Source: Morinoia aosen
Taxonomy: Eukaryota; Arthropoda; Malacostraca; Amphipoda; Talitridae
Assembly (NCBI GenBank): GCA_030386875.1
Contig: CM059577.1
Span: 22,889,038-22,953,037, forward strand
DNA length: 64,000 nt
Direction of reading: 5' to 3'
The translations under genes were made by a program, and so were the position numbers. Positions within the stretch are counted from its first letter, which is position 1. The number at the start of each line of letters is the position of its first letter. The notes below the pieces were generated by a model. The model worked only from the letters and a program-made list of their open reading frames with translations, ran no database searches and was not told the DNA's origin. This document shows, piece by piece, positions 8,870 to 60,960 of the stretch.

Positions 8870-9006
8870 ATGAGCGCGGCCGAGACGCTCGAGGCGTGGC
8901 GCGCTGCGGACGCCGTCTGCTTCGACGTCGACAGCACCGTCATCACTGACGAGGGCCTCGACCAGCTCGCCAACTTCTGCGGCAAGGGCGACATCATCAG
9001 GAAGAT
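8870..9006 (+). CDS. PSPH: PSPH exon 1 (residues 1-45 plus two bases)
   Basis: Opens with ATG and encodes the N-terminus with the HAD nucleophile motif DVDST (19-23). It ends in AT before the donor gtgagcc, leaving phase 2. The donor sequence is repeated many times downstream (9001-9350). Much more GC-rich than its flanks. Confidence 0.96.
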
Positions 9007-12000
9007 GTGAGCCTTCTTTTGTTTTCTCGTGTCTCGAAAATGTGAGCCTTCTTCTTTTTATTTATCGCTCTATGTATCAGGAGGGTATGAGCTTTCTTTA
9101 GTTTTCTCTTATCTGGAAAATGTGAGCCTTCTTCACTTTATTTATCGCTCTATGTATCAGAAGGGTACGAGCTTTCTTTAGTTTTCTCTTATCTGGAAAA
9201 TGTGAGCCTTCTTCACTTTATTAATAGCTTTATGTATCGAGAAGATGTGAGCCTTCATTTCCTCATTTACATCATTATTTATTAGGAAAGTGTGAACCTT
9301 CTCTTCATTTATCTTCTTATTTATCAGTAAGATAGGAGCCTTCTTTGTATATCTCGGTATTCATGGAAAAAAATATCAGCTTCCTTTTCATATCAATTTT
9401 GTAACCTTTAGGGCTTTCCAGAACACAGGATTTTCATTCGTATAATTTTTTTTATTGAGCGTAAAATCAACATAAAGAAGTTTTCAAGATGGCATCTAGG
9501 TTTTCTGATGATCAATCGAGCAAATGACGGGTAAAGTTGATTGCTTCCTACGATGTGATGTCCAAACCCTCGCTATAATATAGGGGCATCGATGATGCAG
9601 GGGCGATATTGAGCGCCCCTCGCTCTCCGTATCTTGGATACAGCGCTCACCTGCTATGCTGTGTTATTTATTTCGAGTTTCTTGAATAATAGTACGAATG
9701 TCTCTTTATTTAACCCTTCATTTATTGGGAAGTCGTGAGCCTTCTCGTTTTTGTCCCTTGACAACTCTATCCCAGCCGCGGACAATGTTACTAAATTTAT
9801 TTCCGAACACCTTCGTAAATTTCAGTTGGACTTGCTTGTGTTTCTTTGCATATTTTTATTGCTGATAATTGCCATAGCCCACGAACGAATTTTTCAGTTG
9901 AATTCGTGAATACTCGGCGATTTTGTTTATTGTGAACTTTGTAGAACTTTGTAGAGTATAAAAAATTTTTACTTCATATTTTGTGTGCAAAGAACTTTAA
10001 TTTAAACCTTGACATAACAAAAGTCTTTGTGTAAATTTGAATCCTCTCCCACGTCAATACAATACACGATGCACAATTGTTCCAACTTCAACACTGATGT
10101 ATGACAAAATTAATTGAACCCTCCCCTCAGGGAGGAATAACTATTGTATCTAAGGGAATTAACACTCTTCGGGGAAAATGTGTGAGGGTTAGGTAGGACT
10201 TCTTTTTGTTGGAATAAAATGTTTTTTGTTATGTTAAGGACCAACTTTTTCCAGTTCACTGCTGTCTGTTCTTTTCAGCACTTACTACTATCTTTTTCAA
10301 CTTTTATCTTGTTTCATAAACTTCTTTCTCCACTTACTGTTCCTATGCCCCTTCTGCATAGATTCCGCATTCCCTTATCTCCATACTGAATGGTGCCTTC
10401 CTCCTTCGTCTCTTCGGTACGCTCTTTTAATTTTTAGCTGTTAGGGAGGCTTTAAAATAACATATAATCTAATGTAATTAATTGAAACCCTTCATGTACG
10501 TACAAGTAGCTTTGACGTAATATTTAGATACGCAGAAATTTTTTATGAAAGCTTCATTCACAAGAAAAACTCAGAACAACAATTTTGACATAGAAAATGT
10601 TACCTCGGCGTAGTAACGCTTTGAATCGCTGCGTGCAGCACGCAGGAGGCGATGCGAGGCTGCGTGGACTTCAGAGAGGCGTTGCGTGCCCGCCTCAGCC
10701 TCCTCAGGCCGGACCAGGATGTCGTCCAGAAATTCATCCGCACTCACCCGCCTCTCCTCACTCCGGGGATAAAGTGAGTGTCTTCTGCACTCCGGGGATA
10801 TAGTGTCTCCAGCATTCCGGTGATTTGGTGAGCACTCCAGCACTCCGGAGATAAAGATAGTATAGAAGGTTTCCGACACCTGGGTAGAGTGGGGTATTAT
10901 GCTTTGAATTTTTCCCCTATACCCAACGGAGAAAATCGCCAGGCAGCATATATAATAGAGAAAGCCTTCTACCATTACAATCCAATATAGTATTTTTGAT
11001 TTGCTATTTGAATCTTATATTTTCTATATGGGTTATACATTTTCGTGTTCTCAGTTGAATCGTAAAAACATATTTTAGGAGATAACATTACGTTTTATAT
11101 TTCCGTGACTCCCTCACTTTCCTGCTGGCAGAGAGTTGGTGTCCGAGCTGCAGTCGCGGGAGACGGATGTTTACCTCGTGTCCGGAGGCTTCCTGTCCCT
11201 CATCGCTCCTGTCGCTGAAAAAATCGGTGTGCCTGTCGAGAACATTTACGCGAACAGACTCAAGTTCTATTTCGATGGTGAGTGCACTTTCAAATAATAT
11301 TGTAAGATACACTTGAAAATTAACAAATATATTAGTGTATACATGGTATTTATTTTGTGCTTGAACAATTCTTCCGAAATACTTTCAAATAAACTTATAT
11401 AAGTGTGATTGATAGATTTTCGGACGGTTATTACGAAAACCTCACCCGGCGATTTTAGCGTATCTAAATCACTAATTCTCAATGAATGTATATCTTCCGA
11501 TGCGCAATTATTTTTGGTAGAATTACTGTTTTCTTTTTAAACTTCGAGTAAACACGAACAAGTTGTCTCAAACATCTGATTTAAACTAACCCCATTATAT
11601 TGAAGACTATGTCAAGCAGTTGATAAGTGTAACCAACAAACGCATAAAGATGATGAAAAAACCAACAAGGGGACAAATGCATCAACATTGTGACAAAGGC
11701 ATCGAGTTGACAGAACCACCAATTCGAAAGAGACATCAGTCAGTTTAGACACTTGTATCATGCCTCTCTGAACATGTAAATACATACAACACACTTCAAA
11801 CAAGCGCGTCCAACACATACAGCGAGCGCTTCACATTCACTACTTTCACTGAATGGATTTTTCATTCCCAAATGTTTAATTTACTTTTTGGTACCTCCTA
11901 GTTTGTGAAATATCCCCTAAAATTCCCCACATTTATTCTGATCCGTTCAATTCTGAGCCGCAAGTTAGTTCTGAACTACTAATTAACTTTGGAGCACAAA

Positions 12001-15000
12001 TGAATTTTGCACCACTAATTTCGAACTGTAAATTGATTTCGAATCGCTAATTAATTTTCAACTGCCTAATGATTTTGAGCGGCCAGATAACTTTGAGCGG
12101 CCAGATAACTTTGAGCGGCCAGATAACTTTGAGCGGCCAGATAACTTTGAGCGGCCAGATAACTTTGAGCGGCCAGATAACTTTGAACGGCCAGATAACT
12201 TTGAGCGGCCAGATAACTTTGAACGGCCAGATAACTTTGAACGGCCAGATAACTTTGAACGGCCAGATAACTTTGAGCGGCCAGATAACTTTGAATGGCT
12301 AGATAACTTTGAACGGCCAGATAACTTTGAATGGCTAGATAACTTTGAACGGCCAGATAACTTTGAACGGCCAGATAGCTTTGAACGGCCAGATAGCTTT
12401 GAACGGCCAGATAGCTTTGAGCGGCCAGATAGCTTTGAGCGGCCAGATAGCTTTGAGCGGCCAGATAACTTTGAACGGCCAGATAACTTTGAACGGCCAG
12501 ATAACTTTGAACGGCCAGATAACTTTGAACGGCCAGATAGCTTTGAACGGCCAGATAACTTTGAGCGGCCAGATAACTTTGAGCGGCCAGATAACTTTGA
12601 ACGGCCAGATAACTTTGAACGGCCAGATAACTTTGAACGGCCAGATAACTTTGAACGGCCAGATAACTTTGAACGGCCAGATAACTTTGAACGGCCAGAT
12701 AACTTTGAACGGCCAGATAACTTTGAACGGCCAGATAACTTTGAACGGCCAGATAACTTTGAACGGCCAGATAACTTTGAGCGGCCAGATAACTTTGAGC
12801 GGCCAGATAACTTTGAGCGGCCAGAAAACTTTGAGCGGCCAGAAAACTTTGAGCGGCCAGAAAACTTTGAGCGGCCAGAAAACTTTGAGCGGCCAGAAAA
12901 CTTTGAGCGGCCAGAAAACTTTGAGCGGCCAGAAAACTTTGAGCGGCCAGAAAACTTTGAGCGGCCAGAAAACTTTGAGCGGCCAGAAAACTTTGAGCGG
13001 CCAGAAAACTTTGAGCGGCCAGAAAACTTTGAGCGGCCAGAAAACTTTGAGCGGCCAGAAAACTTTGAGCGGCCAGATAACTTTGAGCGGCCAGATAACT
13101 TTGAGCGGCCAGATAACTTTGAGCGGCCAGATAACTTTGAGCGGCCAGATAACTTTGAGCGGCCAGATAACTTTGAGCGGCCAGAGAACTTTGAGCGGCC
13201 AGAGAACTTTGAGCGGCCAGAGAACTTTGAGCGGCCAGATAACTTTGAGCGGCCAGATAACTTTGAGCGGCCAGATAACTTTGAGCGGCCAGATAACTTT
13301 GAGCGGCCAGATAACTTTGAGCGGCCAGATAACTTTGAGCGGCCAGATAACTTTGAGCGGCCAGAAAACTTTGAGCGGCCAGATAACTTTGAGCGGCCAG
13401 ATAACTTTGAGCGGCCAGAAAACTTTGAGCGGCCAGAAAACTTTGAGCGGCCAGATAACTTTGAGCGGCCAGATAACCTTGAGCGGCCAGATAACTTTGA
13501 GCGGCCAGATAACTTTGAGCGGCCAGATAACTTTGAGCGGCCAGATAACTTTGAGCGGCCAGATAACTTTGAGCGGCCAGATAACTTTGAGCGGCCAGAT
13601 AACTTTGAGCGGCCAGATTATTTTGAGCGGCCAGATAACTTTGAGCGGCCAGATAACTTTGAGCGGCCAGATAACTTTGAGCGGCCAGATAACTTTGAGC
13701 GGCCAGATAACTTTGAGCGGCCAGATAACTTTGAGCGGCCAGATAACTTTGAGCGGCCAGATAACTTTGAGCGGCCAGATAACTTTGAGCGGCCAGATAA
13801 CTTTGAGCGGCCAGATAACTTTGAGCGGCCAGATAACTTTGAGCGGCCAGATAACTTTGAGCGGCCAGATAACTTTGAGCGGCCAGATAACTTTGAGCGG
13901 CCAGATAACTTTGAGCGGCCAGATAACTTTGAGCGGCCAGATAACTTTGAGCGGCCAGATAACTTTGAGCGGCCAGATAACTTTGAGCGGCCAGATAACT
14001 TTGAGCGGCCAGATAACTTTGAGCGGCCAGATAACTTTGAGCGGCCAAATAACTTTGAGCGGCCAAATAACTTTGAGCGGCCAAATAACTTTGAGCGGCC
14101 AAATAACTTTGAGCGGCCAAATAACTTTGAGCGGCCAAATAACTTTGAGCGGCCAAATAACTTTGAGCGGCCAAATAACTTTGAGCGGCCAAATAACTTT
14201 GAGCGGCCAAATAACTTTGAGCGGCCAAATAACTTTGAGCGGCCAAATAACTTTGAGCGGCCAAATAACTTTGAGCGGCCAAATAACTTTGAGCGGCCAA
14301 ATAACTTTGAGCGGCCAAATAACTTTGAGCGGCCAAATAACTTTGAGCGGCCAAATAACTTTTTGAACTCTAAATTCTTTTCGAGCCACAAATGAACATC
14401 CACCCCCTCCCCCCCCCCCCCCCCCCCCCACCCGCGCAGGGGAGTACGCGGGGTTCGACGAGACGCAGCCGACGAGCAGGTCGGGCGGGAAGGCGGAGGT
14501 GGTGGCGGCGCTGCAACGCAAGCACGGCTACTGCTGCGTCGTGATGGTCGGCGACGGCGCCACCGACATGGAGGCCTGCCCTCCTGCACAGGCCTTTATT
14601 GGTTAGTTATACCCTCCTCTTTCAAATGCAAGTTTGTAAAAAGCAGTTTTCGATAGTTTGTTAGGAGTGTTTTCTATTATTAAATAAAGAAATTATTTTT
14701 CATTCTTTTTTAGTTTTTTGCTCGTGCTAATTTGTTTTAAATGGAAAAATCAATTTTTTGTTCGTGCTCGTTTTTTGTAAATTTCTATATCAGTTTTTTT
14801 TATTTGATTTTCTGTTTTAAGCCTTCGAATGTTTATTCAAGAATTTATTCGTTGTTCCTTTTGTGAGCCTCGTGACGATTGATATTTCTCACTTTTTAAT
14901 TGAATTTATGTTTGATTTTTTCTGCTCGGTTTCACTTTCAAAATAGATCTTGAACGTTTCACGTATATCTTTCTAAATGAAATACGGATATATGTATACT

Positions 15001-18000
15001 GTTGTAATTTTTTCCAACGCTTCAAAAAAATTGTGATAATTCAAGTCGTTGATATTTCTCAAACGCTCGTTTTCGTGCACATTGGAATAGTAAATTTTCT
15101 CTGTCATCAATGGGTGACTCTCACTTGAGAAGAAGGTATTGGAGCTGGATCTGGTAATTATAGGCAATTCTTATGATTGAAAACATTTTATCACTTGCAC
15201 GTATTTTATAAAAAGTTTTGCGCAACAAAACGGTCTGGAAACTTTGTAACAATCAGGCTATTTCGTCTCACCTTCGAGTGAAGGTTACCCTTGTTAGGAA
15301 CAGCGTAAAATGTTCATTGGACAACACCCCTCAGGGGATGCAGCTATTGTATCAATGGGAATTAGCAAATTAGCACTCCCAGGGGGAAATGAGTGAGGGT
15401 CTGAGCTGAGAGTTAGGCAGGCCTTCTTTTTTTGAAATAAAATGTTTTTTTGCTATGCTAAGGACCACCTTTTTCAGGTTCACTGCTGTCCTGCTTTTCA
15501 GCACCTGCTACTTTCTTCTTCGACTTTGTCGACTTAGATCTTGTTTCATGAGCTTCTTTTTCAACTTACTGTTTCTATACCCTTTCTTCATAGATTCCGC
15601 ATTCCCTTAACTCTATACTAAATGGTGCCTTCCTTCTTCCTCCTTTTGGATCATATTTATTGCGGATAGGGAGGCTTAAAGTAACTAAAAATCTACTCCT
15701 TGAACAACATTGTTGAGCGTACATATTGATCGTTGTACCCTATACCTGAGCCATCTGAAACCACACATGGATGTTGGTTATTCTTTAACCTCTCGTCTGC
15801 AGTTTTTCACCAGCGCATTTACGTGCGTCGAATCAATAACGAGTTGTAGAGACCATTTAACTATAAACAGGTAAATGGATTTCAGCTTTTAAAAATCCCC
15901 ACCTAGTTTTTGCAGTATTTTTTCATGGACCATGTTTCATGTCTTCATCGTTTCTCCTTCATCATGGTTCATCTTCGTAATGATTCACGTGCGCTCCACA
16001 CGGTACGTGCCCAGTGCGAAATATTTGAAAGCTCACGTTCGCCTAAAGTTTCTCCTCAAATGAGTCCATGATAACAAACGCATCAGTAACACGTCATTTT
16101 CTCCCGATAACAAGCGCATCAGTGACACGTTATTTTCTCCCGATAACAAGCGCATCAGTGACACGTTATTTTCTCCCGATAAAAAGCGCATCAGTAACAC
16201 GTCATTTTCTCCCGATAACAAGCGCATCAGTGACACGTTATTTTCTCCCGATAAAAAGCGCATCAGTAACACGTCATTTTCTCCCGATAACAAGCGCATC
16301 AGTGACACGTTATTTTCTCCCGATAAAAAGCGCATCAGTAACACGTCATTTTCTCCCGATAACAAGCGCATCAGTGACACGTTATTTTCTCCCGATAACA
16401 AACACATCAGTAACACGTCATTTCCTCCCGGTAACAAACGCATCAGTAACACGTTATTTTCTCCCGGTAAAAAACGCATCAGTAACACGTCATTTTCTCC
16501 CGATAACAAACACATCAGTAACACGTCATTTTCTCCCGAAAACAAACGCATCAGTAACACGTCATTTCCTCCCGATAACAAACGCATCAGTAACACGTTA
16601 TTTTCTCCCGATATCAAACACATCAGTAACACGTCATTTCCTCCCGGTAACAAACGCATCAGTAACACGTCATTTTCTCCCGATATCAAACACATCAGTA
16701 ACACGTCATTTCCTCCCGATAACAAACGCATCAGTAACACGTTATTTTCTCCCGAAAACAAACGCATCAGTAACACGTCATTTTCTCCCGAAAACAAACG
16801 CATCAGTAACACGTCATTTCCTCCCGATAACGAACTCATCAGTAACACGTCATTTCCTCCCGAAAACAAACGCATCAGTAACCCGTCATTTCCTCCCGAT
16901 AACAAACTCATCAGTAACACGTCATTTCCTCCCGATAACAAACGCATCAGTAACACGTCATTTCCTCCCGATAACAAACGCATCAGTAACACGTCATTTT
17001 CTCCCGAAAACAAACGCATCAGTGACACGTCATTTCCTCCCGATAACAAACGCATCAGTAACACGTCATTTCCTCCCGATAACAAACGCATCAGTAACAC
17101 GTCATTTCCTCCCGATAAAAAACGCATCAGTAACACGTCATTTCCTCCCGATAACAAACGCATCAGTAACACGTCATTTCCTCCCGATAACAAACGCATC
17201 AGTAACACGTCATTTCCTCCCGATAACAAACGCATCTGTAACACGTCATTTCCTCCCGATAACAAACGCATCAGTAACACGTCATTTCCTCCCGATAACA
17301 AACACATCAGTAACACGTCATTTTCTCCCGATAACAAACACATCAGTAACACATCATTTCCTCCCGATAACAAACACATCAGTAACACGTCATTTCCTCC
17401 CGATAACAAACACATCAGTAACACGTCATTTCCTCCCGATAACAAACACATCAGTAACACGTCATTTCCTCCCGATAACAAACGCATCAGTAACACGACA
17501 TTTTCTCCCGATAACAAACGCATCAGTAACACTTCATTTTCTCCCGATAACAAACGCATCAGTAACACGTCATTTTCTCCCGATAACAAACACATCAGTA
17601 ACACGTCATTTTCTCCCGATAACAAACACATCAGTAACACGTCATTTTCTCCCGATAACAAACACATCAGTAACACGTCATTTTCTCCCGATAACAAACA
17701 CATCAGTAACACGTCATTTCCTCCCGAAAACAAACGCATCAGTAACACGTCATTTCCTCCCGATAACAAACTCATCAGTAACACGTCATTTTCTCCCGAT
17801 AACATACGCACCAGTAACACGTCATTTTCTCCCGATAACAAACGCATCAGTAACACGTCATTTTCTCCCGATAACAAACGCATCAGTAACACGTCATTTT
17901 CTCCCGATAACAAACGCATCAGTAACACATCATTTTCTTTGGATAATAAACGCACCATGCAGTAACCAGAAACACTTGATTTTCTCCCCAGGCTTCGGCG

Positions 18001-18092
18001 GCAACGTGGAGAGAGAGGCTGTGAAGAGCAAAGCGCCGTTGTACGTGACCAGCTTCCACACCCTCAGACAACAGCTCTGTAACAAGCACTGA
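8870..18092 (+). CDS. PSPH: Phosphoserine phosphatase, five coding exons, 226 aa
   Basis: Joins 8870-9006, 10639-10773, 11132-11277, 14440-14601 and 17992-18092 (681 nt, 226 aa plus TGA). The enzyme removes phosphate from O-phosphoserine, the last step of L-serine synthesis, in the cytosol. It is a HAD-superfamily enzyme with these motifs visible: motif I DVDST at residues 19-23 (nucleophile D19, acid/base D21), E28, motif II SGG at 108-110, K157, and motif III GDGATD at 177-182 (D178, D182). The length matches the ~225 aa of animal PSPH and it aligns end to end. All junctions are GT-AG with matching phases (2, 2, 1, 1). Start: the ATG has a purine at -3 and lies 5 nt after a spliced acceptor, so a 5' UTR exon should exist upstream but I could not place it. 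Every intron carries a tandem array or retroposon. The coding frame is intact. Drosophila's counterpart is astray. Confidence 0.97.
9001..9350 (+). repeat. 80-bp tandem array seeded on the PSPH exon 1 donor
   Basis: The authentic exon end and donor gaagat/gtgagccttc at 9001-9016 recur: gtgagcc at 9042, 9122, 9202 and 9247, with variants at 9087, 9167 and 9291. The regular spacing is 80 bp. The 9241-9256 copy matches the real splice site over 16 nt. Units also mimic the last exon codons (atcagga-gg-tat). A further isolated copy, gggaagtcgtgagccttctc, lies near 9730. Confidence 0.85.
9351..10130. other. PSPH intron 1, remainder
   Basis: AT-rich intron with no recognised feature except the stray donor-like copy near 9730. 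Confidence 0.5.
10131..10476 (+). mobile_element. Retroposon R1, copy 2 (PSPH intron 1)
   Basis: Near full-length copy beginning at cccctcaggg and ending ggaggctttaaaataacatataatctaatg. The flanks AATTGAACCCTC and AATTGAAACCCTTC look like a diverged target duplication. Confidence 0.75.
10639..10773 (+). CDS. PSPH: PSPH exon 2 (residues 46-91, cap domain)
   Basis: Acceptor gtgcag at 10633-10638. The first base completes the split codon from exon 1, followed by [11 protein letters not shown], which aligns to the PSPH cap-domain TxxAM...F block. The exon ends in AA before gtgagtg (phase 2). A second AG lies 7 nt downstream, but using it would break the frame. Confidence 0.95.
10759..10860 (+). 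repeat. Short tandem array seeded on the PSPH exon 2 donor
   Basis: The exon 2 end and donor cactccggggataaagtgag (10759-10778) is followed by three diverged copies starting at 10788, 10813 and 10841, spaced 25-29 bp. The third copy keeps ggtgag; the first has tagtgt. Confidence 0.8.
10870..10937 (+). repeat. Dispersed repeat R2, copy 1 (PSPH intron 2)
   Basis: A ~68-bp block (ttccgacacctgggtagag ... atacccaacggagaaaatc) that recurs at 51621-51688. Nature unknown. Confidence 0.6.
11132..11277 (+). CDS. PSPH: PSPH exon 3 (residues 91-140)
   Basis: Follows the acceptor ctggcag and encodes ELVSELQ..., the VSGG motif II (S108, G109, G110) and NRLKFYFDG. Donor gtgagtgc, phase 1. The conserved Arg usual after SGGF in vertebrate PSPH is Leu112 here, a difference outside the catalytic set. 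Confidence 0.96.
11278..11949. other. PSPH intron 3, 5' part
   Basis: Unique AT-rich intron sequence before the proto-repeats. Nothing recognised. Confidence 0.5.
11950..12068. repeat. Degenerate proto-repeats before the 18-bp array
   Basis: Loose ~18-22 bp units of the type ttcgaa-c-gctaattaattt (e.g. tctgaactactaattaactt, ttcgaatcgctaattaattt). They share the tt-gagc-g...taa skeleton of the 18-bp unit. Similar decayed sequence follows the array at 14367-14395 (cgagccacaaatgaac). Confidence 0.6.
12069..14366. repeat. 18-bp minisatellite, ~128 copies, PSPH intron 3
   Basis: Unit ttgagcggccagataact. Because 18 is a multiple of 3 and the unit lacks stops in several phases, it creates open frames of 300-760 codons on both strands; these are not genes. 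Variant units cluster: gaac units at 12345-12780, agaaaac units at 12815-13070, agagaac at 13183-13230, and an unbroken block of aaataac units at 14040-14366 beside exon 4. Such blocks are expected from unequal exchange or slippage. Confidence 0.98.
14402..14430 (+). repeat. Poly-C tract before exon 4
   Basis: A run of 22 consecutive C plus neighbouring C's lies directly before the exon 4 acceptor and serves as its pyrimidine tract. Likely length-polymorphic. Confidence 0.9.
14440..14601 (+). CDS. PSPH: PSPH exon 4 (residues 140-194, catalytic motif III)
   Basis: Encodes [11 protein letters not shown], then K157 and the Mg-binding loop GDGATD (177-182), ending at AFIG. The acceptor gcgcag follows an almost pure C run at 14408-14430. 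Donor gttagt, phase 1. Highly GC-rich. Open antisense frames across it belong to the adjacent minisatellite and are not genes. Confidence 0.96.
14602..15316. other. PSPH intron 4, 5' part
   Basis: T-rich unique sequence; no feature recognised. The stretch 15710-16069 between retroposon and minisatellite is likewise plain. Confidence 0.5.
15327..15699 (+). mobile_element. Retroposon R1, copy 3 (PSPH intron 4)
   Basis: Starts acccctcaggggatgcag, the longest 5' end seen in the family, and ends ggaggcttaaagtaac. The flanks TTGGACAACA and TTGAACAACA (15317-15326, 15700-15709) are a target duplication with one mismatch. Confidence 0.78.
16070..17991. repeat. 36-bp minisatellite, ~52 copies, PSPH intron 4
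   Basis: The unit contains catcagtaacacgtc then attttctcccgataacaaacg. Length is a multiple of 3, giving ~640-670 codon open frames on both strands that are not genes. Units 16104-16400 alternate two types (tgacacgttatt / taacacgtcatt) as a 72-bp higher-order repeat. The final diverged unit (17951-17991) is cgcaccatgcagtaac, then acacttgattttctcccc, then the real acceptor AG, so the array runs into the exon 5 splice site. Confidence 0.96.
17992..18092 (+). CDS. PSPH: PSPH exon 5 (residues 194-226 and stop)
   Basis: Acceptor tctccccag, then GFGGNVERE through to the C-terminus and TGA at 18090-18092. FGGN follows the family consensus after the AFIG block. The acceptor lies in the last, diverged unit of the intron-4 minisatellite. 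Confidence 0.95.
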
Positions 18093-42300: not shown

Positions 42301-45300
42301 AAAATAATGCATCATTAAGCAGAATGTCATTTTCTGTAAAAAATTTTTAAATGCGATTCTTTGGAATGGAATTTTTAATTTCCCTGAAATGCTTAAACTG
42401 CATATTGACCAAATTTATTAACAAGCTGAACATTTGTAATGTGGCAAGTAATGTAAGTTTTAGTTAGAGAGACCTAAAGTTGGCAATGCTTGATACGGCA
42501 AGATCACAGCCAGTTCTGGATTGGTCGTAGCCAGCAAAACAGTACTTGTTGGCTGCAAGTGTGTATATAGATTATCTTAAGGACGCCGTCTGGGAAAAAA
42601 AGTCTGTTTTTTATGGATGAATTTCTCTGAAGTTTTCACAGTAGGTGTGAAATGATGCAAAGATCATTTGTTATTTCAACAAAATTTTTGTATCTGCACT
42701 GGAATTTTTTTTATTTTCGAAAAATATGATAAAATAGGGTTTTTTATAAAATCTATCTTCTACAATTTTGAAGTTACAGAACCAGTACTTCGTTTTTAGA
42801 TTGCTTATATGTCTATATAACCACACGCAATAGGGAATTTCGACAACTTATTTTTGTGGATTTTGGGAATTGGAAAAAAAATACCTTTTAATTTTTTTTT
42901 TCATGTCGTTTAATTTTCAAAATAATAAATGTTATCAAAAAATGCTTTTCCTGTGAATACACCTTGCTAAGCCCTATCGAATGGTATATAAACCATTCTT
43001 GTAGCTCTAAAAGTGTGGAAGGAGATACATTTGAGAATCCAATTATCAAGTTTCCAGAAAAACACGTTTTTCCACAAAAATTTTTTTTTTCATCTTTTGA
43101 ACTACAGGGTTTTCTACTATGAAATCTTGAGCATTTGTAGCTCTTTTCAAGCCCTTTTGATTGATATAATTTAAATTGCTGTAGCTCTGTAACTCTGGGA
43201 AAAAATATACAACAAAAGAGAATAGGTGTAATTCTTGAAAACAACAAATTTTTTAAATTTTTCATTTATTTTTCAACCAAAATACGTTTTTTTGTCAAGT
43301 CAACTCCTTCGTTTTATAGCTCTTTTCAAGCCCTTTGGATTGGTGTGCTCGCCATAGCTGTAGCTATGATACTGCAGCTGTCATCGAGCTATGAATGAAA
43401 GCTGCAGTATCATAGATACGGCAGAACAGCTAAATTCTGAAATTGTCAAAAACTATAAAAAATATTTACTCAGTGTTAGAATGACTTGTTTGAATGATGG
43501 AAGCACTTTGAGTAGCCCATTAACCAACTATAATGCCATTCCCGCAGAGAAACATGCTCAATTGATCCCCAATAATGAGAGGGGAGGGTTCAAGGTCACT
43601 CCACCCCCATCACTTTCCCCCCTCTGGTGGGCGCACTAATCGGAGTAGACGTAAATGGAAAGTACCAATGGAAGCGCAAGAAAATCCTCTATAAGATGCA
43701 TATAAAAACAGATAATCAACACATATCCTGATTTCTACCCAGACGGTGTCCATAAGAGCAAAAGGTCAATGTGAAGTTTAATGCAATCACGGAAAATAAG
43801 AATTCCGATCTTAGGAATCACTATAGGAACCCATTTAAGAACGTTTTACACGAATGACATTCTGCTAGCTGATGCGTTATTTTCGAATAATTGAACTTTG
43901 AAGTTGGCCTTGGCGCCAAAGGAAGCGAGTGCGTGAAACGGAATTTAATTAATAACGGAAGCTATTACAAACGTAAAGAGGTTGGGTCGTGAGGGGGAGG
44001 CACAGTTCTTCTAGTGAAAATTATAAATAAAGCTTCTAACCCACCCATTAGGGTGACGACCGCAATCTTGTTGACATCGGGTCCAAGATGGCGGCGCCCA
44101 TGGTGGTCGCCATGTTAGACCCGATGTAAACAAGATTGCGGTCGTCACCCTAATGGGTGGTTTAGAAGCTTTATTTATACTTTTCACTAAAAGAACTGTG
44201 GCTACCCCTCACGACCCAACCTCTTTACGTTTGTAATAGGGGGTTAGCTTCCGTTTTTAATTAAATTATGCTCGCTTCCTTGGGCGCGCGACGGCCAACT
44301 TCAAAGTTCAATAATTCGAAAATAACGCATCAGCGAGCAGAATGTCGTTCGTGAAAAACGTTCTTAAATGCGTTCCTTTAGTGATTGTTTGGAATATAAT
44401 TATCAATTTCCGTGATTGCATTAAACTTCACATTGACCGAGCAAAATAACTACACCTAAGCTATTTCTGACTACCTACTACTAATTCTATGCTACCCTAT
44501 CATATTATTTCCATCTATCTCCGCTTTTATCTCACTGGCCACATGATTAGTAAACTGAGCATATTCCTAGCTAAGTGATATCAAAGAGGTGAGTGTCTAT
44601 TGGCTTACATAGTACTGATGTATCCATATGGCTATTGATATATGTTTCTATTTATGTCAGCACTACTACCGAGTTGTGTCTAAGTGGATCCAAATATTGT
44701 CCATGTGTTGTCTAACCTATACTGTGCTCTAGTGTAGGATTGCTAGGTGTGCTGGCATGTTCTATTATAAATTGGTTACCATACTACAATTAACATCCTA
44801 GGTAGGATTTACCTCAACATTATTGACAATTAAAGTTTCTACACTACTCTAGTAAATCAAGTAAGCTGAAATTTTTTTAAATTTCTATATGTTATCAATT
44901 TTTAAAATATTTATTTGATTCTTTAAAGAAGTTTGAAAACATTTACATTCATCTATTTAGCTGAACGTTTTCATAATAAAAATAACATATCCCTTCTTAT
45001 ATGCAGGGTGCGTACAGGCTCTGAGGTTCAAAATTCCACTACTTTTTCATGACTTTTTATGCCAACCAAATCACATTTTCACTACCTCTCTCTGCCCAAA
45101 ATAATGTCACACAAAGTTAAATTGCAGCACAATAAATGTATTTCAGTCATAAACTTCACAGAACATTCATCATTACTTGCAGGTCTTGTTTTCATAAATG
45201 TGTAAATGATCATCACAACACCAAACAGTCATGCTGGACAGTTCAATAGCATCTGCTATGCATTTGCCAGTGCATTAAGTTTGTCATTAATTTCCGCATT

Positions 45301-48300
45301 CAGCCCCTTGAGTTGTTCTTGCTTGTCTTTGGCTGATTTCCTCAATGCATTTGACTTTGCCAGTAGGCGCAAATCATTCTTGTCCTCTGCCTTCCGTGCA
45401 AAGCTGTCAGCATCCTCCACCAGCGCTTGCAGACTCTCCTCCATCCTCTTCCGTTTTGACTTCAGGTTCTCCACTTCATCCAGTTCTCTCTTCCTCTTCT
45501 CTCCCTTCTTCTGCTTCTCTGCCTCTTCCTTCTTTTGATCCAGGTAGTGTTGATAGCGCTGTCTGCCCTGTGAAGCTGAAAAGAGGAGTTTCTTGGAAAT
45601 GTCAACCTTGGAGATACCTCCTACATGTTTGATGTGGTCCATGACCACTCTCTGCGCCACGATGGTGTTCTCACCCATGTTGACTTCCATGAGCTGCTTG
45701 CTCACAGAAAAGCCCTTTTCCACTGAAGCCTGGCCATGTGACAGGACCAGTAGCATCTTCACAACCAGCCACAGTTTCTTGAGGGAGGATGTGGCCAGCT
45801 GGCTGCTCCAGAAGACATCTAGCCAATCAGTGTCTTGCTGAAAACTGTTGAAAGTGCTGATCTTCCTCTGTGCCTCATCAAAGAACTCTGAAAACTGGCT
45901 CATCACCTCATCGATGTCACCCTGTGGTAGCCTCTTAGCATCGCTGAGCAGCTGCAGACAGTTTTTCAGCATGGACTTGGTCTTCTCTCTCTTTGTGCGA
46001 TCCACAAAGACACTTGGCACCAGCCAGCCCATGTTTCGGGCCAACCCGAACTTCAAAGGTGACTTCTCAACAATCTTCTTGATGACAGCAACAAGCAAAC
46101 CGCCGTTGTTTTCAGTTTGGGATGCGGTGCTATCCATTGTTGAAAGTCTTTGTCTCGCAACCACAAGTTGTTGAAAGACCAACTGCCTGGCATGACGATA
46201 ATTCCTCAGCTCAGTCTCGGCACCGTAACTCTAGTCACACACACACGGGATGGTCAAGACCGATGATAAAAACTCAGCTCGAAAATGTTCAACAGTGGCG
46301 ACAGGTCAACAATGGTCCGAGCGAGCGCGTGTCTTCAGTCACACTGAGCGCGTTTGGTTTCACGTGACGCCTGAGAACCAATCAAAATCGCGGACACTAA
46401 AGACGTAGCTGTATCAACCAATCAGAGCCCAAGTAACACTCGAAGGTTACTGACAACGCCTCGCTCAACGCGGACCAAACGGAACGAAAATTTTCAACAG
46501 TAAAATTTTCTTTTCACGAAAATCCTAAAATTTCATGACTTTCAATGACCATTTTTAAAATTCCACTACTTTCGAGGCCTTGAATTTTATTTCCGAAATT
46601 CAACTACTTTCCATGCTTCTCCATGCCTGTACGCACCCTGTATATGGAGCAACAAAAAAATATATTTTTTTCAAGGTAGATATAAGTAGTCTAGTCAGGG
46701 AAGAATTTCAAGGAACTTTTTTATGCCTGGACACAATGGCAAATTGGAACTAGATGTAGCAGCCAGGAGGAATTTTGTGAGCTATTTTGTCGAACAATTT
46801 TGAAGTATCTTGATATCTATCTAAAATTAGTTTCTAAAAGGTTCCACCATACAACAAATCAAAATAACAATTATTAGTTAATATGTGCATCTTTTCAGGA
46901 GGGAGAATGAACTTGGGCTGAATAGAGAGACAGAAGCGTGGCAACCCCCTCAGGCTACTAGGATTCGAGTACTGAAGAGCGAGAGCTGTCGGAATGGCAA
47001 TGCATTGCAGCGAGGCTGCAGCTGAAAGAACGCAAGTTCCAGCTGAACATCACTCTCTATATTAAAAGATAATTTTAAACTCTTTATCTTGTTTTAAATG
47101 GCCCTCAAATTACTTCATTAGAAAGAGAAAATTTTCAGCTTTCCGAAAAGGTATTTTTTTTGGTCAAAAAACCCTCTAGAGTATTAGTTATTCATTATTG
47201 TTCCCTGTGAACAAGACATGCACAAATAAATTAGTGTTATTCCTACGAGAATGAATCGCTTTTCGGTCTCGTTTTAGGCATAAATTCGACTCGTTCCTCG
47301 AAAAATGAACTTAGGAGAAGAGTGGCTCCGGAAAGTTACTCCCGTGCCGCAGCTACCTGGCAGAGTGTAAAACATGATGTGAAATAATTATATCGTAAAT
47401 TCTGTTTTTCCTATAGAGGAATTAAATATTCGTGTATTATTTTTGTTTGTGTTAAAATACGCTGTGCGTATTGTGTTTATAATGATGGTGTAATGAAGTT
47501 AAAGAAAACTAATTTCTGCCAACCTATTTGGTGACTTGAAATTGAATATTAGGCATTAGTACTATAAAATGTAATCCATTAGTCCAAAAAATGTAATGTA
47601 ATCGAGCAAAGCGTAACATTCGAAATGGCAGTGGGTGTCTTAAAGAGGTATTTGGGAATGATTTTCTTTCTTTGTTCACGTTTGCAAATAAAATGCATCG
47701 AACGGTTTTTTGAGTATGAAGTTCACAAAGAGAACATCTATATAAATCAATAAAATTTATCCCACAGATAATTTCAACATTGATATATGTAATTCATTGT
47801 GGATTTAGTGGTAATTTAATATCCGATGAAATTACTCTACCAAAGTTTTTACCGATATTTCTCGATGAAGTTAGATGGGATGAGAAAGAAAAAAAGAAAG
47901 AAAACCCATTTATTTTCTAAAAATTTGATTTGTGAGATGCATTTCATCATATTGGGTTTCAAAACTTTCCTATTACAAAACGTCCTTAATTGATCTCATA
48001 AGATTTCATATATCGTGAAATTAGGAATTAAAATGATAGAGAAACATAATATTTAATATGACATACTCGTCTTAACAAAAGCTAGTTGATACATTTCCTT
48101 ACATGATATTTGTAAGTTACGATAATAGAAAACTTCTAAATTCAATTTGAAATGTTGTACAAAATATTTCTCCACATTGCTGTTTTTTGTTGTTGTTCCA
48201 GACCAGAGAAGAAAAATTGAAGATGATGCAATTAATGACTAAAAAACCTGTTTTGCCATATGAAGAGACATTGAGTGTTCCATTTACAACTGCAGCCAGT

Positions 48301-58789: not shown

Positions 58790-60960
58790 AAAAACGCTTT
58801 ACCGAAGCTGATTAAAACACCGTCGTATTCACATCTTGAGAAAAGGTTAGTCCCAAAGTAATTCATGAAGAACATCACGCAACACAACACGCACATCTAG
58901 AAAAGCGTAAACAAACGTACACGCAAAATGAGATTCAAGCCTTCTTTAACAGACGCACAGGGAGATAATTTTTTCCCTAGCGCTTTATTTCATTTGTCTG
59001 TTTATATTTTTCATTTTTTCTATCCAGAGATGTGCCCTCTGGGGTAGTGATCGATCTATTTTTGAATCTTTCAGCAAGTGCGATAAATATATTTATTTCT
59101 GAAATATGGTTCAGCGTTAACTGGTTAGGTTAGGTTAGGTTAGGTTAGGTTAGGTTAGGTTAGGTTAGGTTAGGATAGGGTAAAGTTAAATGTGTCTTGA
59201 AGTTTTATTTTTGTATATGAATTTTGTATTAAAATTGAAACATATGTATATGAATATGTTTATATATGAACATGTATATGTGCACACACACAAACATAGG
59301 CATAAATGTTTGGGTGCGCACACACATGCACGCACCCACTCACATACACATATGCATCTAGAGTATAAACGTATTGAAAATGAATGCAAGAAAAATAATG
59401 ATAAACAAATGACAGTCAAGCTAAGTGTATTCTTAAGAGATATTCTGAAGAACAAATAAGCAAGAGGAAAATGACTTCAAAATACGTAAAAAAGAAATGG
59501 TTTTTAATTTCCTAACAGAAATTTTAAGAAAACTCAAATTACAGTCGAGGAACATCAACAAAAAAAATCGGGTTTCACATCCTTTCGGTATTCTCTGCAA
59601 CATCATGCGGACATGGGTACATGGGATAAATGGAGATACAGTGTAAGAAAAATATCGCTTATGAGTACCAAATATCTACAAAAATTTTGGCAGAAACACG
59701 TAAACACACATATACTCAAAAATGAAAATTCATAACTTGTTCAACATACGGAAAGAAAAATAATGTTTCCACGATTCATATGTTCTAATTTCGCTTTATT
59801 TCATTTGTCTAATTGTATTTTTCATTTTTTCCTATCCCCTGAAACTCTCTCTGGGGAAGTGATGCATCCATTTTTGAATTATTTCGCAGGAGCAATAAAA
59901 TTAATTTACCGTATTTTATAGTAAAAAATAGAGTTAGAAATATGTTTTATATATTTATGTAGATATACGTATACCTACATACGTACACAAACATATTTAT
60001 ATATATATACACTTATTGAAAATGAATATAAGAAAAAAATATATAAAAATTAAAAGACGAAAAACAACCTACCTCCTACTATATTGAAAATGACAGACGA
60101 GTTCCCTGTAATCGCAAGAAATTATTCGGAAAAAATAGCTAAAAAGAAAGAAGACTTCGAAAACGTAAAAATGAAATGGTTTTTAATTTCCTAATAGAAA
60201 TTTTTAAGAAAACGCAGGTTACAGTCAAGGAACAACAACAACAGCAAATAAAATATTTCGGGGTTCACATCTTATCGGTATTCTCTTCAGCATTATACGG
60301 ACATGGGTGCATGGGATAATATGGAATAACATTGTGGCCTGATATCACATCTGAGTGGCGATTATTCACAAACTTTGGCACGTAGAGGTAGATTGAACAG
60401 TGGTCCACAGTAATAATTTTAATTCCGGAAATTTAGAGTTTTTTCTGATTTGAAAGTTCAGTGCTAGTGTGCGCTGAACGCAATGAAAATTAAAAAAATA
60501 AATAAAATACTTAACTATCCTCTCTCCTCAGCTCAGCCAAAATCGATTGAAACACCTTCGTGAATGATTTCGAAATTGTGAGGCAACGTTAGCCAAAAAT
60601 TAATTTTTTACAAACATAGCACAACACTCACATCTATAAACCTGTATATTGATGCACACACAAAAATGTATTTCAGTGTTTGTTTGGCATACGGACGTTA
60701 AATAAAAATCTTGAAAAGAGAAAAATAAAAAACAAAGATGAGGAAATGCTACTAATTATGGAAAAAACGACCTTCATTCCGCTGCATTGAACTAACGGCT
60801 GTGGTGCTCATTATAGTTGACAGAAATATGTAAGATCAATATTAGAATGACTTAACGAACGTAAAATGAAATAATTTCTAATTTTTTAACAGAAATTTCA
60901 GGAAATTAAAATCTCAGGTAAACACCGGAATGCTGCAGGCTCTATGACAGAGATGCAAAA
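58790..60960. repeat. Decayed ~0.7-kb tandem repeat, about three units
   Basis: Anchors recur at regular distance: gacttc-aaa-acgtaaa at 59473, 60153 and 60848; gacatgggt-catgggataa at ~59611 and ~60300; gctttatttcatttgtct at 58980 and 59795. Unit ~680-695 bp; the first unit is longer because it holds the TTAGG and CA-rich tracts. Confidence 0.7.
59123..59173. repeat. Interstitial telomeric repeat (TTAGG)n
   Basis: About ten uninterrupted TTAGG units, the arthropod telomere motif, followed by a decayed aggataggg. Both flanks are ordinary sequence, so it is internal, not a chromosome end. Confidence 0.93.

Follow-up and report, generated by a model that had tools for sequence, protein, structure and literature searches.

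PSPH-A and the Tandem Arrays of Its Introns

We analyzed the phosphoserine phosphatase gene PSPH, together with the tandem repeat arrays of its introns, in a 64,000-nucleotide stretch of the Morinoia aosen genome (contig CM059577.1; hereafter the window). The copy in the window, PSPH-A, is intact and comprises five coding exons and four introns, all of them GT-AG, with a product of 226 amino acids. Its closest solved relative is the L-3-phosphoserine phosphatase 1nnl (residues 4-219 aligned, E 5e-81), which we take to be the human enzyme; the end of exon 2 codes for LTPGIK, and 1nnl has LTPGIR at the same place. Tandem arrays were called with TRF across the window, and each of the four introns contained one, which bears out what a preliminary description of this DNA had reported. 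The features are listed below (window positions; unit lengths in base pairs, bp); exons follow the gene model, supported for exon 1 by alignment to the solved phosphoserine phosphatase, and arrays follow TRF and junction alignment.

8870..9006, + strand, PSPH coding exon 1
8996..9238, + strand, intron 1 array, 80 bp x 3.0, whose opening unit takes in the donor and the 11 exon bases before it
10639..10773, + strand, PSPH coding exon 2
10759..10853, + strand, intron 2 array, 25 bp x 3.5, about 3.5 decayed copies of CACTCCGGGGATAAA/GTGAGTGTCTTCTG (the slash marks the exon-intron junction)
11132..11277, + strand, PSPH coding exon 3
12074..14362, + strand, intron 3 array, 18 bp x 127, stopping 77 bp before exon 4
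14440..14601, + strand, PSPH coding exon 4
16070..17954, + strand, intron 4 array, 36 bp x 52 (52.4)
17992..18092, + strand, PSPH coding exon 5 including the stop codon

Each junction segment was aligned to the neighboring 400 bp of intron, with 300 dinucleotide shuffles per junction as the control. At donor 1, the alignment to the intron copy crosses the junction, is 23 bases long and contains 2 mismatches (score 36 vs. a shuffle maximum of 25). By eye, decayed units of this array reach approximately 9390, and the array has an older look, with subunits of roughly 40 bp. At donor 2, the intron copy extended over 16 bases with 1 mismatch (score 27 vs. a shuffle maximum of 24); the unit here consists of the final 15 exon bases and the initial 14 intron bases (29 bp), and its donor copies in PSPH-A have decayed, leaving just one more GTGAGY, at 10828. 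Little beyond base composition was found at donors 3 and 4, whose scores were reached by 53/300 and 109/300 shuffles, respectively. The scores at the acceptors of exons 2, 3, and 4 were reached by 234/300, 135/300, and 7/300 shuffles, the last of these reflecting a run of C.

Junction sequence was therefore inside the repeat unit in two of the four introns (1 and 2), not in three as had been described, and the duplication of junctions did not extend to every intron of the gene. The intron 3 array, previously placed 74 bp before the exon 4 acceptor, does lie close to it, but the gap is 77 bp, no junction copy was detected by alignment, and the array is unrelated to the exon 4 junction; an acceptor-derived origin was rejected, as the acceptor aligns merely through its run of C. 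The intron 4 array had been thought to include the exon 5 acceptor. Its last, decayed unit extends by eye to the pyrimidine tract of that acceptor, and this tract is all that the two have in common (score 24 vs. a shuffle maximum of 22). The match ends at TTTTCTCCC, before CAG/G, so that the unit contains neither the AG nor any exon sequence, and the junction-spanning score of 9 fell under the threshold of 14.

With respect to position, all four arrays lay within 80 bp of a splice site, compared with 1.12 expected under random placement within introns (P 0.003), and two of the four touched or overlapped a splice site, compared with 0.18 expected (P 0.0075). The arrays have the properties of minisatellites, namely head-to-tail units of about 10-100 bp, local occurrence and variable copy number. 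In a genome search with the units of introns 1, 2, and 4, allowing at most 3 mismatches (more diverged copies would escape it), all matches were located at the two copies of PSPH described here: 5/5 for intron 1, 95 for intron 2 (1 in PSPH-A and 94 in the second copy) and 51/51 for intron 4. A dispersed satellite or transposon family as the source of these three arrays was rejected on this basis.

Two further observations concern these introns. Because its unit length of 36 bp is divisible by three, the intron 4 array can be read through in the frame of exon 5, giving an open frame of 681 amino acids (window 16047-18092). By eye, introns 1 and 4 both contain a short dispersed element (CCCCTCAGGGGGATGCA... 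AGGGAGGCTTAAACTAAC), at about 10120-10460 and 15320-15690.

A Second Copy With a Greatly Expanded Intron 2 Array

A second intact PSPH, PSPH-B, is situated 0.57 megabases (Mb) downstream on the same strand (G000:C22:23462601-23478600; L049 and L044), and it is the sole other place in the genome with the intron 4 unit at the same mismatch limit. It is colinear with the window to at least window position 23.8 kilobases (kb). Of the 681 coding bases, 11 are not the same in the two copies (9 of these changes are synonymous, 2 are not), and non-coding divergence, gaps disregarded, was 3.5-7% in four aligned stretches. The arrays had changed in copy number between PSPH-A and PSPH-B: 3.0 vs. 2.3 in intron 1, 3.5 vs. 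98.5 in intron 2, and 52.4 vs. 7.6 in intron 4. The same 29-bp unit (98.5 copies by TRF) makes up about 2,850 bp of PSPH-B intron 2, whose full length is 3,107 bp, and this intron carries 92 exact AAA/GTGAGT donors, the real donor included. The earlier proposal that exon-intron junctions had been duplicated in tandem, with expansion of introns and the making of decoy donors, finds its clearest support here. Translation continued beyond the real donor of PSPH-B exon 2 gives K and then a stop codon.

The intron 2 unit most likely derives from the exon copy, because the exon 2 end encodes LTPGI, which is common to the solved relative. Exon 2 of PSPH-B has CCA where PSPH-A has CCG, and 16 of the 92 PSPH-B units exactly carry the CACTCCA variant. 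An exchange between array and exon may be reflected here, although this is a single site and weak as an indication. The CACTCCA units are mostly the first units after the exon and those at the far end, with an almost uniform middle; such a placement suggests that the latest growth occurred in the middle of the array, not at the exon.

It is possible, though we would put it at clearly less than even odds, that PSPH-A and PSPH-B are haplotypes assembled side by side, the differences between their arrays then being allelic; such an assembly effect would be compatible with any of the explanations weighed below. Four other gene pairs on the same contig, with equal or near-equal match scores and 0.6-1.4 Mb apart, are consistent with it (C12:41.42/42.05 Mb, C14:48.20/49.11 Mb, C17:2.05/3.45 Mb, and C1:49.53/50.22 Mb), and such spacing suggests segmental duplication or side-by-side haplotypes. 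However, the non-coding divergence is high for alleles, and a second stretch colinear with window 42-47 kb was not detected among the 40 of 14,092 candidates scored, a weak counterargument. Whether the copies are paralogues or haplotypes, the arrays are present in both.

Junction Copies in Unrelated Genes

Chaperonin genes, found by a family search independent of arrays, served as controls, and exons of myosin and proteasome genes formed a second sample. Together they provided 150 junctions, inferred from sequence, in 21 gene entries of three families. For the chaperonins, 56 of 72 exon matches were used, the others being bacterial-type or not groupable into a gene, and 7 of 96 junctions were dropped by hand before counting; at least 3 of the 30 introns (C4 1, C20 4, and C5b 2) conceal an exon missed by the family search. 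For myosin and proteasome, 38 of 115 exon matches (79 + 36) were used, alternative-exon clusters and likely duplicate genes being left out, and fixed thresholds kept 61 junctions. A junction copy was defined as a tandem copy spanning the junction with a score of at least 14 within 200 bp, and swapped introns were taken as the control.

Among chaperonins, a junction copy was present at 5/47 donors and 3/42 acceptors, compared with 0/2,162 and 0/1,722 for swapped introns. The myosin and proteasome junctions gave 0/27 donors and 1/34 acceptors (swaps 0/702 and 0/1,122). When both samples were pooled, 9/150 junctions were copied (donors 5/74, acceptors 4/76; about 6%) vs. 0/5,708 swapped controls. 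The phenomenon is thus not special to PSPH and also occurs in unrelated genes, and at this rate the probability of at least two copied junctions among the eight of PSPH is about 0.08 (hand calculation).

Three observations stand outside these counts. At the donor of L046, a repeated CTGCTGTCGAG/GTCAGG was seen by eye, and the script did not call a copy. An intron of a chaperonin gene, presumably CCT2, has an array of 33 units of 29 bp that begins 13 bp inside it (L045, reverse strand, 821-1789); by eye, the unit is similar to the donor region (about 15/21 bases), but it fails the junction test. The dispersed element noted in PSPH introns 1 and 4 was also seen by eye beside an array in a chaperonin intron (L045, reverse strand, approximately 1952-2150).

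Origin of the Arrays

We suggest, with a probability of roughly 65%, that the arrays are ordinary gene-local minisatellites that selection keeps out of exons and tolerates across junctions. The pattern looks like repeat growth general to this genome instead of a mechanism directed at a single gene. Segments of about 20-110 bp would be tandemly duplicated at many genome sites; duplications inside exons would be purged by selection, and those in introns or straddling a junction would be tolerated, presumably as neutral changes. Copying of an exon end with its donor would leave the original junction intact and drop the extra copy into the intron; copying of an acceptor with an exon start would be the mirror image, in which the last acceptor remains. 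Such duplications would be tolerated because the true site, the first donor or the last acceptor, survives, and the first donor of PSPH-B intron 2 is presumably the one used. Afterwards, the arrays could grow or shrink via slippage or unequal exchange. In line with this, forward tandem copies covered 7.7% of 11,497 interior positions of chaperonin introns and 0.1% of 1,788 exon positions. The explanation is also favored by junction copies that exceed the shuffled and swapped controls, by the restriction of the intron 1, 2, and 4 units to the two PSPH loci, by the altered copy numbers in two genes of near-identical coding sequence, and by the junction copies of unrelated genes.

Under this explanation, a modest excess of arrays at splice sites is partly expected. 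The copy held in the exon would be conserved, and its tandem partner would therefore stay recognizable roughly twice as long, so that an excess of about twofold could arise from such one-sided decay alone. When both edges of every array in every flank were counted, the zone within 60 bp of a splice site had 17 edges in 11.9 kb and the zone beyond it 41 in 57.7 kb, a ratio of 2.0 (gene bootstrap 1.2-3.4), which was 2.2 at a limit of 30 bp and 2.3 at 100 bp; the window outside PSPH had 0.55 array edges per kb. The ratio was 2.9 in chaperonins and 1.0 in the myosin and proteasome sample. The tally of arrays against splice sites, a check named in the preliminary description, is thus intermediate in outcome, with an excess overall and in chaperonins and none in the second sample. 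An early reading that arrays strongly abut splice sites was weakened by this fuller count, as the earlier nearest-edge count had taken the exon-proximal edge alone and, where an intron was short, could register the same array twice, once from each end.

Several results weigh against the explanation by ordinary minisatellites. Arrays in 4/4 PSPH introns, compared with 10/30 chaperonin introns, would occur by chance at about 0.01, although PSPH was picked for its arrays. A copied junction would fall in a first or last unit, and such units occupied 1.6-1.9% and 2.0-2.2% of chaperonin intron positions, respectively; from these shares about 3.0 copied junctions were expected, and the 9/150 found are about threefold that number (hand calculation), with no excess relative to the share of all array positions. 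In chaperonin introns, 8 of 15 arrays lay within 30 bp of a splice site vs. 1.6 expected, with 0/2,000 placements as high, which exceeds what one-sided decay alone easily yields. The placement table behind this comparison also includes myosin and proteasome rows pairing the donor and acceptor of one exon, rows that have no arrays, and its entry for genes other than PSPH practically amounts to the chaperonins with a few additional introns. Finally, the donor consensus MAGGTRAGT occurred 66,239 times in the genome, with a next copy at a gap of 18-48 bases in 13,499 cases (20.4%), and the reversed motif occurred 84,740 times with 3,753 pairs (4.4%); the tandem share is 4.6 times that of this one control motif, in a copy-weighted count to which long arrays contribute by their number of copies. 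The case does not rely on this motif count.

A rival explanation is a mutational process biased to splice junctions, junction zones being hot spots of tandem duplication through, for example, co-transcriptional breaks or R-loops at exon edges. The excess of array edges, the tandem donor consensus, and the five chaperonin arrays found at or over a splice site where 0.56 were expected all speak for such a bias. Yet the myosin and proteasome sample had no edge excess and only 1/61 copied junctions, and none of five inspected array starts with the donor consensus, from about 13 among the first 100 matches listed (one contig), was clearly at an exon end (L095 was ambiguous). One-sided decay, along with the dilution of intron interiors by transposons, would act in the same direction as a bias. 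We consider a mutational bias of this kind unlikely. It is likewise doubtful, if marginally less so, that exon-intron junctions are duplication hot spots throughout this lineage, with a sizeable share of genes holding intact decoy arrays among which the spliceosome must choose. A junction-targeted process is not needed for the observations, and the suggestion that one was required is not supported.

Retention of the arrays for a function, either decoy donors that sequester U1 snRNP (small nuclear ribonucleoprotein) or a tuning of PSPH output via premature stops, is improbable. The many exact donors of PSPH-B intron 2 and the stop reached directly on read-through past the real donor would suit such a role, but the intron 2 array is nearly lost in PSPH-A while both coding sequences are intact, and the copy numbers of the arrays in introns 1, 2, and 4 are unequal between the copies. 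That the arrays are leftovers of introns born by tandem duplication of exon sequence, a mode of gain described for AGGT-bearing segments (PMC3443670, PMC2891723), is very improbable and was rejected, as none of the eight introns of both copies showed a clear likeness between its donor region and its acceptor region (score reached by 41 to 495 of 500 shuffles).

PSPH illustrates that tandem repeats can engulf a splice junction of a conserved housekeeping gene and multiply its donor nearly a hundredfold with the coding sequence intact. PSPH-B is thereby a natural experiment on how a splice site is selected when its competitors are identical, and, if junctions are in fact hot spots, its 92 identical donors are a natural test of first-donor choice. 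The frequency of copied junctions in the sample suggests that such decoy sites may be common in the genome; if the junction excess is real after correction, it would suggest that exon edges are fragile sites.

Other Features of the Window and Assembly

At about 45002-46642, the window contains a 1.6-kb segment with a 324-amino-acid reading frame, which recurs, whole or in part, at many genome places with 97-100% identity and looks like a young mobile element. A short (GGTTA)n run, presumably the arthropod telomere motif, occupies the internal position 59123-59179. Elsewhere in the assembly, at G000:C27:56-72 Mb and C26:20.8 Mb (L001-L003, L014-L021, and L024-L026), there are many intronless matches to the chaperonin, HAD or proteasome families, mostly full-length and in a single frame. 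These genes appear bacterial, as if symbiont or contaminant contigs had been joined into one record.

Comparison With Known Systems

Intron gain by tandem genomic duplication has been described (PMC3443670, PMC2891723), and, as in PSPH, the duplicated segment bears splice signals. PSPH differs in that an existing junction was copied into an existing intron, and the resemblance of donor and acceptor expected of a gained intron was not clear in any of the 8/8 PSPH introns (lowest 41/500 shuffles). In the earthworm, metallothionein genes have a large intronic minisatellite (PMC12783039); big intronic arrays and repeats that differ between gene copies are common to both systems, the earthworm copies being in tandem and identical in coding sequence, and the portion of that report consulted does not state that any unit is splice-junction-derived. 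Intronic minisatellites in C. elegans were linked to alternative splicing, not to copied junctions, in the corresponding portion of that work (PMC4039745).

The nearest parallel is found in human segmental duplications, where minisatellites with units averaging 30 bp lie at exon-intron boundaries and vary between duplicates (PMC2812944); among the matches listed from the open-licence literature, judged by title and the start of the abstract, this was the only one near junction-including tandem arrays. Both systems share minisatellites with units of about 30 bp at exon-intron boundaries and a copy number that differs between recent duplicates. The pattern of the human ITR-type cases, an array over the boundary that is variable between duplicates, was seen in PSPH introns 1 and 2 and not in introns 3 and 4. 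The genes of the human cases are primate-specific and often polymorphic, and their new introns are supported by RNA (PMC2812944). In contrast, PSPH is a conserved housekeeping gene with up to about 98 copies of the unit, intact donors and the extra copies inside the intron, as seen from DNA alone. The PSPH case is one of exon-edge minisatellites as already known, and what is new is that they occur in a housekeeping gene, that intact donors are so extremely numerous, and that their frequency in other genes can be measured.

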